This document shows, piece by piece, positions 21,081 through 35,411 of a stretch of DNA of 49,161 nt. Where the stretch lies: positions 1 through 49,161 of the forward strand of contig NZ_JHVL01000017.1 of the NCBI RefSeq assembly GCF_000620125.1. The letters are read 5' to 3'. The notes below the pieces were generated by a model. The model did no database searches. It saw only the letters and a program-made list of their open reading frames with translations, and was not told the origin of the DNA. The translations under genes were made by a program, and so were the position numbers. This stretch comes from Clostridiisalibacter paucivorans DSM 22131. Lineage in GTDB: Bacteria; Bacillota; Clostridia; Tissierellales; Clostridiisalibacteraceae. Position 1 is the first letter of the stretch. Each line of letters opens with the position of its first letter.

Positions 21081-21145
21081 AGGAACTAAATATATATTAG
21101 TGAAAGGGGTGAGGCCTATGGAAAAGTGAAAAAATCAAATAGAAA

Positions 21146-21290
21146 AGCGCCAGAACATGATGCACATCATGTTGACGAGGTCAGGGTTTATCGAAGTTTT
21201 CGGCGGATGCCCTGGGGTATAAGCCACTACCCTTAAAGATTAACAAAACCTATAAGTAATTATAGGGACAAAATAATCAGGTGGATTAAA
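21146..21290 (+). ncRNA. glmS self-cleaving ribozyme
   Basis: The leader of glmS contains the invariant core AGCGCCAGAAC, then TTGACGAGG, TTTATCGAAG and TTTTCGGCGGATGCC, in the correct order and spacing. Cleavage is expected between A21146 and G21147. Glucosamine-6-phosphate, the product of GlmS, acts as cofactor, so cleavage lowers the mRNA when product is abundant (known for this class). The 3' boundary near 21290 is approximate. Between it and the gene is a further 10-bp inverted repeat, GTTATTAGTT / AACTAATAAC (21333-21342 and 21376-21385), just before the ribosome site GAGGAGG. Confidence 0.95.
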
Positions 21291-33359: not shown

Positions 33360-34664
33360 TTGAAAAAAAGATATTTTATAATTCTATTTATGTCTACTGT
33401 ACTTTTTTTAGTAGGTTGTAGAACTATAGAAAAAAATCAAGCTTCTTCGCAGCAAGAGAATCTAAATTATGATATTCAATACCATATGTATAAAACTCCA
33501 GACGAATTTAAAGATATTATAAAGATTGAATTTATGCTTGTGGATGGTGGACCTCATATGGCAAATAATATCTTAGTTACACAAGATAAAAAGATATATG
33601 ATATCATGTCAATGATAGAAGAAAGCGAACCATTGACAGATGAATCTAAAATAAATGACAAAATGAGTGGAATGGCTAGGGAAAACAATAAGATGATTAT
33701 TACTAAAGTAGATGGAAGTAAAAATGAGATGGCTTTTTCCTATGATACTTTGTATGAAGTAGGTTATATAGACATAGATGGAGAAAAAATCAAGCCCGAT
33801 TATAGTTTTTTTAGATATGTTTATGAACTAGAAGAATATACAAATTCTGATACAAAGATTGAACAGCGTATAGTTGAGCTGTTTGACAAGTATAATTGGA
33901 CTGTAGATTATAAAATAAATACATCGACATGGAAATTACCTGAAAATCTCAAACATAAAGCAGGAGAATATCCAATAAAAATATATTGGGCGTATAATAA
34001 TGAGCTTTCTAAAAAAATACAATTTGATTTTACTGGATATCTTGGGAGAGATGTGGTTGTGGAGATTTATAGGTTAAGGGAACAATTGCCAGAATTTATG
34101 AAACCAAGAAGAGATGCTAGAGGGATTGTGCTGAAATATGATAATAAAATTATTGGAGCATATATAGATGCTGGTAGACATTACTCTTTTGCTTGTTCTC
34201 TTGATAGAAAAGGTTTAAAAGAGATTACGGGGAAACAATGGGATAGATGGGTTATAGACTACATAGATTATAATGATGATTTGGAAATTGAATTATCTAA
34301 TATGGGGCCAGAAGATATTATTAAAGAATATTTTAATGCATTAGATAAAAATGATACTAAAAAGATGTTGGCATGTTTGACTAGGAAAAACTTGGTTCAG
34401 TATTTATCAACTAATTTAAATAATCATAATTTATTTAATGATGACAAAATAGATAATAATATTAAAAGTGCAAAGTTGTTAGATATAGAAGAATTTACAG
34501 GGATGGACAATGGATCAGATATATTGGAATATAAAGTAGAAGTAGATTTTGATTTCAAAAAATCTATAACATCAGAAGATGGAATAGCGTCTAGATTTGT
34601 TATAATGAAAAAAGAATCTGAAAAGAGTGGCTGGAGAATTGATGGTATCGGTACAGGTCCTTGA
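33360..34664 (+). CDS. Lipoprotein with DUF4830-like domain
   Basis: About 434 residues from a TTG at 33360, 10 bases after GGGGAA; a GTG at 33351 is the alternative but lies too near. The signal peptide ends in the lipobox FLVGC near residue 20. The middle (about 160-310) has the pattern ELFDKYNWTVDY and ARGIVLKYDNKIIGAYID, which resembles DUF4830. The last 110 residues (IIKEYFNALDKNDTKKMLAC) look like an NTF2-like or DUF4878 fold. Function unknown. It is followed by the riboswitch of the NUDIX gene, not by a partner. Confidence 0.75.
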   Translation: MKKRYFIILFMSTVLFLVGCRTIEKNQASSQQENLNYDIQYHMYKTPDEFKDIIKIEFMLVDGGPHMANNILVTQDKKIYDIMSMIEESEPLTDESKINDKMSGMARENNKMIITKVDGSKNEMAFSYDTLYEVGYIDIDGEKIKPDYSFFRYVYELEEYTNSDTKIEQRIVELFDKYNWTVDYKINTSTWKLPENLKHKAGEYPIKIYWAYNNELSKKIQFDFTGYLGRDVVVEIYRLREQLPEFMKPRRDARGIVLKYDNKIIGAYIDAGRHYSFACSLDRKGLKEITGKQWDRWVIDYIDYNDDLEIELSNMGPEDIIKEYFNALDKNDTKKMLACLTRKNLVQYLSTNLNNHNLFNDDKIDNNIKSAKLLDIEEFTGMDNGSDILEYKVEVDFDFKKSITSEDGIASRFVIMKKESEKSGWRIDGIGTGP

Positions 34665-34719
34665 CAAATAGAATATTTGGTTATAGACTGTAAAAAAATC
34701 ATATAATTATTACTGAACT

Positions 34720-34826
34720 GGGATTAGGTAGCTAGGGTTCCACCTTAAACTACTAAGGGATTGTGACCGAGCGCTACATCTCTTGTTTTACAAGAGGCAC
34801 CTACTGGAATAAAATGCCCGAGGGGG
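34720..34826 (+). ncRNA. ykkC-class riboswitch, probably the nucleoside-diphosphate subtype
   Basis: The RNA has GCTAGGGTTCCAC, then a CCTTA/TAAGG hairpin, then GTGACCGAGCGC, a CTCTTG/CAAGAG hairpin, TAGGT/ACCTA closing helix and GGAATAAAATGCCCGAGG. This is the ykkC architecture. The last block departs from the guanidine-I sequence, as in subtype 2. Subtype 2c, which binds ADP/CDP-type diphosphates, is known to sit before NUDIX hydrolases, and a NUDIX gene follows here. Ligand is inferred from that context. Confidence 0.7.
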
Positions 34827-34876
34827 AAGGTTCAGCGTGTTTTTATGCGCTGAATTTTCACCCCTCGGTTTTTTAT
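34818..34876 (+). terminator. Regulated terminator of the riboswitch
   Basis: CCGAGGGG (34818-34825) pairs perfectly with CCCCTCGG (34861-34868) around an inner TTCAGCG / CGCTGAA hairpin, and a T run follows. The left arm is also the conserved 3' end of the aptamer, so ligand binding should block the terminator and switch the gene on (inference). Confidence 0.82.
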
Positions 34877-34901
34877 ATTTTAAAATAAAGGAGGACGTAT
34901 T

Positions 34902-35339
34902 ATGCAACAGATAAAAGATATTTGTCCAGGTATAGCAGTTATAATTTTTAATGATAAAAAGGATATTTTATTACAAAAAAGAGCAGATGTGGGGTTTTGG
35001 GGTATACCCTCAGGACATGTGGAGATAGGAGAAACAATAACTAATGCTGCAATAAGGGAAGTTTTTGAAGAGACAGGTCTACATATTGAAATTTTAAGAT
35101 TAGTTGGAGTGTATTCGGATCCAAAGTCTCAAGTCTTTAAATATCCTGATGGTAGAATTACTCACTTTATAACTTGTTGTTTTGAGGCTAAGATAGTAGG
35201 TGGAAAGATTTCCTGTGATTCTCCAGAGACTCTTGAAGTAAAATTTTTTCCTATAGATGCCTTACCTTCAAATATAATAAAAATGCATCCCAATTGGCTA
35301 AAAGACGCATTATCTAATAATGGACCTCATATAAGATAA
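34902..35339 (+). CDS. NUDIX hydrolase
   Basis: 145 residues. The Nudix box is complete, GHVEIGETITNAAIREVFEE with TGL following, at about residues 43-65, providing the Glu ligands for Mg. Other blocks: AVIIFNDKKDILLQKRA and WGIPSGH. It would cleave a nucleoside diphosphate linked to another group; substrate cannot be read from sequence, but the riboswitch suggests a nucleotide. The ATG follows AAAGGAGGA. The gene stands alone between two terminators. Confidence 0.93.
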   Translation: MQQIKDICPGIAVIIFNDKKDILLQKRADVGFWGIPSGHVEIGETITNAAIREVFEETGLHIEILRLVGVYSDPKSQVFKYPDGRITHFITCCFEAKIVGGKISCDSPETLEVKFFPIDALPSNIIKMHPNWLKDALSNNGPHIR

Positions 35340-35367: not shown

Positions 35368-35411
35368 GGATGGAAGTTTAACAGTACTTAAATTTCCATC
35401 CTCTATTTTTT
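35368..35411 (+). terminator. Terminator after the NUDIX gene
   Basis: GGATGGAA pairs with TTCCATCC across an 18-nt loop, followed by TCTATTTTTT. Confidence 0.75.

Follow-up and report, generated by a model that had tools for sequence, protein, structure and literature searches.

A probable ykkC subtype 2c riboswitch upstream of a NUDIX hydrolase gene in Clostridiisalibacter paucivorans

The NUDIX gene unit and its leader RNA

The window analysed here (the whole stretch of 49,161 nucleotides from Clostridiisalibacter paucivorans DSM 22131, contig NZ_JHVL01000017.1) carries on its forward strand a gene for a 145-amino-acid protein (34902..35339) that matches the NUDIX hydrolases (PF00293, E 4.6e-24), in agreement with a preliminary description of this DNA that had named a NUDIX hydrolase as the controlled gene. 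A ribosome binding site is recognizable from its sequence (GGAGG, 34890..34894, +), and a consensus scan placed a terminator-like hairpin with a U-rich tail after the gene (35368..35411, +), so the unit is probably monocistronic. Further upstream lies a promoter-like site (TTGACA-17-TAGACT, 34661..34689, +) with 10 of 12 consensus matches; as 11 such sites were found in the region against 5.8 expected, it is weak evidence. Between this site and the gene stand an aptamer of ykkC subtype 2c type (34711..34838, +), identified through its bit scores with covariance model R2 and with a leave-one-out profile, and an intrinsic terminator that forms the expression platform (34818..34874, +), with its stem at 34818-34868 and a run of six U at 34869-34874.

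The RNA had been placed at 34720-34876, and it is indeed present there, but the aptamer starts earlier, with the 5' strand of helix P0 (UGAACU, 34714..34719, +), which in the predicted fold pairs with 34829-34834, shows two-sided changes and may be lengthened by C34713 as a possible seventh pair. The P0/P1 junction (GGGAUUAG, 34720..34727, +), drawn by eye from the alignment, appears by eye to exceed that of the ppGpp and PRPP types by about 6 bases. It leads into P1 (GUAGC/GCUAC, 34728..34777, +; Rfam match and covariation), which encloses P1a/P1b and the conserved blocks CUAGGGUUCC and ACCGAG. The P2 hairpin (34780..34796, +; predicted fold and covariation), lengthened in the fold by a U.G pair (34779/34797), is followed by the GCACC block (34797..34801, +), with a G where the ppGpp and PRPP types carry A, and by P3 (34806..34818, +; from the alignment), whose loop is AUAAAAU. 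The third pair of P3 is nonstandard in 3 of the 26 aligned family members; in the window an A.G replaces the family's usual C-G, and the same was seen by eye in L113 and L135. The P0 3' strand (GGUUCA, 34829..34834, +) is also part of the left arm of the terminator.

Taken by itself the aptamer is unremarkable in stability (z -1.04, with 28 of 200 shuffles equally stable), so the evidence for it is sequence and covariation; aptamer and terminator together fold at -64.4 kcal/mol (z -4.97), matched by 0 of 200 shuffles. The terminator stem (-38.2 kcal/mol), long and with a one-base bulge, was missed at 34818-34868 by the simple consensus terminator scan, which listed 35368-35401 only. This stem re-uses the P0 3' strand, and in predicted folds the aptamer fragment alone forms P0, while the terminator wins once the downstream sequence is added. 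The arrangement recurs in the family: when the 85 bases from the P3 3' strand onward were folded, the terminator took at least 4 of the 6 P0 3' bases, with U-rich sequence after it, in 25 of 26 members, the exception being L119 (3 of 6). The earlier reading of the terminator's left arm as the 3' segment of the aptamer, and of a clear platform from which an ON switch can be drawn, is thereby upheld.

Covariation, Rfam matches and subtype

Our alignment (A5) holds 26 RNAs from 25 genomes, that of the window and 25 RNAs in 24 other genomes, its weakest member being L136 (73.5 bits). Across it 97.1% of 749 cells pair, two-sided changes occur in 15 of 29 pairs and covariation scores 0.358, compared with 0.180 after shuffling; none of 500 shuffles equalled any of these three values. 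Because the sequences were aligned by fitting them to the model, these pairing statistics lean in the model's favour. With partners shifted by 1-3 bases pairing was at most 50.3%, and the number of further pair types was less telling, since 31 of 500 shuffles matched it. In P0, which joins both tails, two-sided changes affect 4 of the 6 pairs. By Rfam match and covariation the window RNA has the ykkC core fold, together with nucleotides conserved before P1 and after P3, where P0 and the tails are both conserved and covarying; the assignment to the ykkC class, proposed from the conserved blocks and the order of helices, holds.

The preliminary description had suggested a covariance search as a check. 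Run with all 4227 families of Rfam 15 against 34600-35000 (401 bases), it returned as top family RF00442, Guanidine-I, at 34721-34825 with 36.9 bits, below the curated gathering cut-off of 63 (E 3.3e-5 for the 401 bases and 6.4e-5 in a whole-genome search). The remaining three matches listed for this region had E of at least 0.33, and a model of subtype 2c's own was absent among the Rfam 15 matches for this region and for the window. The sole match at Rfam cut-offs across the whole window is a glmS ribozyme (21135-21289, +; 107.7 bits).

Scored against subtype profiles, the window RNA gave 110.8 bits with its own NUDIX-associated family (window left out), 38.4 bits with the ppGpp type (2a) and 21.3 bits with the PRPP type (2b), which puts it in a NUDIX-associated family clearly apart from those types. 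The profiles were built from 24 members in leave-one-out fashion (the decayed copies L136 and L137 omitted), 13 ilv/glt-associated RNAs and 42 purine/NCS2-associated RNAs; all 24 members score highest with their own family, the lowest being L135 (78.9 bits). Directly before CACC/CACU stands G in all 24 members but A in all 59 other-type RNAs (13 ilv/glt, 4 natA and 42 purine or NCS2), whose 2a and 2b labels derive from short self-chosen protein motifs, that for purL being loose; these 59 were the ones used from 78 comparison segments, which also included 13 of 2c type, 3 GNAT-associated and 3 unlabelled. By our own mapping this position would correspond to A74 in the PRPP aptamer, a residue that forms a pair with a G in contact with the ligand, according to the available part of PMC6031431.

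Two other members of the class have to be weighed against subtype 2c. As the only Rfam family with a small E-value carries the name Guanidine-I, the window might hold a guanidine-I riboswitch of unusual sequence, and the RF00442 alignment does contain the ykkC blocks CUAGGGUUCC, CCGAG and AUAAAA. Its score is under the cut-off, however, and its 3' block is mismatched, just where a departure from guanidine-I had been noted earlier; the window also has a covarying P0, a helix described as missing in the guanidine aptamer (PMC6031431, available part). Moreover, an RNA of the same genome (L001, 1501-1689, -) clears the cut-off with 74.7 bits despite a PRPP-type tail, so the RF00442 model seems not to separate ykkC subtypes, and we regard the guanidine-I reading as extremely improbable. 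The ppGpp type is the closest-scoring of the others, and the P1a bulge and P3 block of the window resemble it: a UGNG-like P1a bulge was seen by eye in 25 of 26 members (not L117) and also in ilv/glt-associated 2a RNAs. That the window RNA is a 2a riboswitch is nevertheless very unlikely, with a score 72 bits under that of its own family, G rather than A before CACC, a different P0, a longer P0/P1 junction and a NUDIX gene in place of ilv, glt or natA; the same base and the 21.3 bits likewise separate it from 2b.

In L001 a purine aptamer is directly followed by the ykkC aptamer, and the tandem precedes an NCS2-type permease (gene name by eye, type by sequence motif). We rejected this RNA as a guanidine switch on account of its PRPP-type tail behind a purine aptamer and before such a permease.

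The window RNA was thus set apart from 2a and 2b using our own sets of those types, and assigned to 2c by published description, in which RNAs of this subtype control genes for NUDIX and HAD-like hydrolases and have as ligands ADP and CDP, each in ribose and deoxyribose form (PMC7266159; subtype also described in PMC5912903; available text of both).

Relatives, plasmid copies and associated genes

Relatives were sought with two covariance models. R1, built from the window and L073 and used for discovery only, matched at E 0.01 in 22 of 391 genomes of the class, with three new strong matches (85-102 bits); the scores then drop to 58 bits, the level at which ppGpp-type RNAs upstream of ilv genes set in. 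R2, trained on the window and those three new matches, L076, L077 and L078 (the window scoring 142.9 bits as one of these training members), was run on partly overlapping sets of 30, 33, 67, 398, 113 and 289 genomes, with E limits of 1e-8 for the first three sets and 1e-15 for the others and, in the four largest, with filters that lose weak matches; strong matches (at least 96 bits) were found in 1, 2, 1, 6, 4 and 13 genomes, respectively. Strong matches were thus limited to 4 genomes out of 391 from the class (R1, the window's included), 6 of 398 of the phylum and 13 of 289 of another class, which agrees with the rarity attributed to the subtype beforehand. Among 50 chosen sources that included other ykkC types, R2 picked out 10 members that scored at least 124 bits, its own four training sequences among them, and the next source reached 66.9 bits. 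Exact DNA patterns were too narrow for finding relatives: one, scanned over genome contigs, matched L073 alone, and a looser one over the 391 genomes matched the window alone. A phage collection gave no match to the family.

L073 (502-632, -) is a ykkC variant before an EamA gene on an Anaerolineae contig and has the same P3 loop as the window. It was not counted as a member, as it scores 56.1 bits with R2, in the 2a range, and by eye has C in place of G before CACC; its profile scores (45.3 bits with 2c, 31.2 with 2a and 37.2 with 2b) are best for 2c and count against this exclusion. It may be a candidate for subtype 2d, which the review associates with EamA. Three further ykkC variants (L059, L061, L064) have an odd P3, of the GGGUAUAAAAGACUC type in L059, and precede GNAT acetyltransferase-like genes, a label tested with Pfam for L059 only; they score 3-8 bits with the 2c profile, 32-38 with 2a and 36-43 with 2b.

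Members of the family also occur on plasmids. blastn with the window RNA hit 11 plasmid records, all from Staphylococcus, while L124 hit 17 (11 Staphylococcus, 6 Enterococcus) and L076 hit 16. In three Staphylococcus plasmids (L144, L145, L146) a NUDIX gene directly follows the RNA, an IS6-family transposase is encoded no more than a few kb away, and the RNAs score 129.8 bits with R2, among whose training sequences they are not. In two of these three records (L145, L146) bioB is located upstream of the RNA-NUDIX unit.

A tblastn search of 1.4 kb past each RNA found a NUDIX gene in 22 of 26 members, counting the window, the 21 other proteins being 57.5-65.9% identical to that of the window (L137 over 98 amino acids only). 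The association with NUDIX or HAD genes thus extends from the window's NUDIX gene to 22 of 26 members with NUDIX and 1 of 26 with HAD. Genome G1302 holds two RNA-NUDIX units, L133 and L137, the latter apparently decaying, its CUAGGG block altered and its NUDIX frame truncated. The four non-NUDIX members are L128, before a short HAD frame (PF13344); L135, before a Ham1 (XTP/dITP-type) pyrophosphatase and then an EamA transporter; L136, a decayed copy with no recognized gene after it; and L077 of genome G292 (L077 / L098, 4199-4460), an intact 2c RNA directly before thiC (TIGR00190, 601.6 bits). In 12 picked genomes the RNA was found in 4 of 4 with a NUDIX match, 7 without a NUDIX match showed no RNA match in R2 searches with an E limit of 1e-8, and G292 had the RNA without NUDIX, giving no match to the window's NUDIX protein at E 1e-10. 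A promoter scan of 401 bases around the thiC-linked RNA returned no site, upstream of the RNA or elsewhere.

In the available text of two papers thiC is tied to TPP riboswitches and not to ykkC RNAs (12 of 13 places in PMC2211319; 7 of 7 in PMC3766115). A literature search for ykkC RNAs with RdgB and EamA returned the review PMC7266159 alone, itself without the term 'RdgB'. The literature searched left out most subscription papers, and the thiC and Ham1/EamA links cannot be called unpublished. What is new is minor: the intact thiC-linked copy, whose genome yielded no close NUDIX homologue, and the plasmid RNA-NUDIX units.

Proposed control and comparison with known riboswitches

Taken together, our data indicate that the window RNA very probably belongs to ykkC subtype 2c, the nucleoside diphosphate riboswitches, and governs a single NUDIX gene by transcription termination. 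We infer a response to nucleoside diphosphates from the class (PMC7266159, available text), for which the same review terms the precise 2c ligand 'somewhat unclear'. The ligand-bound aptamer and the terminator are mutually exclusive, so an ON switch is predicted from the structure. In the absence of ligand, the aptamer's 3' end (34818-34838) would pair downstream as the terminator and the transcript would end before the gene. With ligand bound, presumably ADP or CDP in ribose or deoxy form, P0 and P3 would be held and the left arm of the terminator would be unavailable, and the NUDIX hydrolase would be made and would trim the nucleotide pool, from which its substrate would presumably be drawn.

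A different natural ligand is conceivable, namely a related amine-bearing diphosphate such as the thiamin precursor HMP-PP or its antimetabolite in place of the ADP/CDP pool. One intact copy lies before thiC, with no TPP riboswitch at the Rfam cut-off in the 7.6 kb around it. Both ligand bases carry an exocyclic amine, as does HMP-PP, and the HAD enzyme Cof acts on HMP-PP. In addition, the published 2c ligands are diphosphates of two bases (PMC7266159), and the NUDIX enzyme NudJ degrades HMP-PP analogues (PMC5158307; available text of both). Against this, thiC follows only 1 of 26 RNAs, and the Ham1 pyrophosphatase after L135, like a nucleoside hydrolase downstream of another member's NUDIX gene, points to nucleotides. 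Furthermore, it is hard to see why the diphosphate of thiC's own product should switch the gene ON, except if an antivitamin were the signal. As the thiC copy is a single case, we keep this reading as a rival only and consider it unlikely. Equally doubtful is its extension to the entire 2c regulon (NUDIX, HAD, Ham1 with EamA, and thiC), which would then answer a specific amine-bearing pyrimidine or purine diphosphate, with (d)ADP and (d)CDP as mere look-alikes. Were it true, HMP-PP or a toxic analogue would be the signal, the thiC copy would be the clue, and the response would be to raise production of the genuine vitamin precursor or to have a false one destroyed or exported. For the nucleoside diphosphate riboswitch that we prefer, the locus offers a clean natural 2c example whose expression platform is evident, together with an alignment of 26 members, in a class that gave no Rfam 15 match of its own, and the copies before thiC and Ham1/EamA offer a way into the question of what the class senses in the cell.

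With Guanidine-I (RF00442) the window shares P1, P1a, P1b, P2, P3 and most conserved blocks, but its 3' block differs and P0 is extra. The core, a P0 and a terminator platform are common to the window and to both the ppGpp (2a) and PRPP (2b) riboswitches, the P1a bulge also occurring in ilv/glt-associated 2a RNAs. The 2a riboswitch differs in the A before CACC/CACU, a shorter P0/P1 junction and its amino-acid and natA genes, whereas the 2b riboswitch differs in the A before CACC, the lack of a P1a bulge in those seen, and its purine genes and NCS2-type permeases.

The subtype 2c NDP riboswitch was reportedly described by Sherlock, Sadeeshkumar and Breaker in 2019. Compared by description rather than residue by residue, no difference between it and the window RNA was found in the available text of PMC7266159 and PMC5912903, where thiC and Ham1 are not named among its targets. 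The two have in common NUDIX/HAD genes, the ykkC core, tails conserved outside P1 and P3 and a predicted ON switch, and the RNA reported here is a sound new member of this already described riboswitch class.
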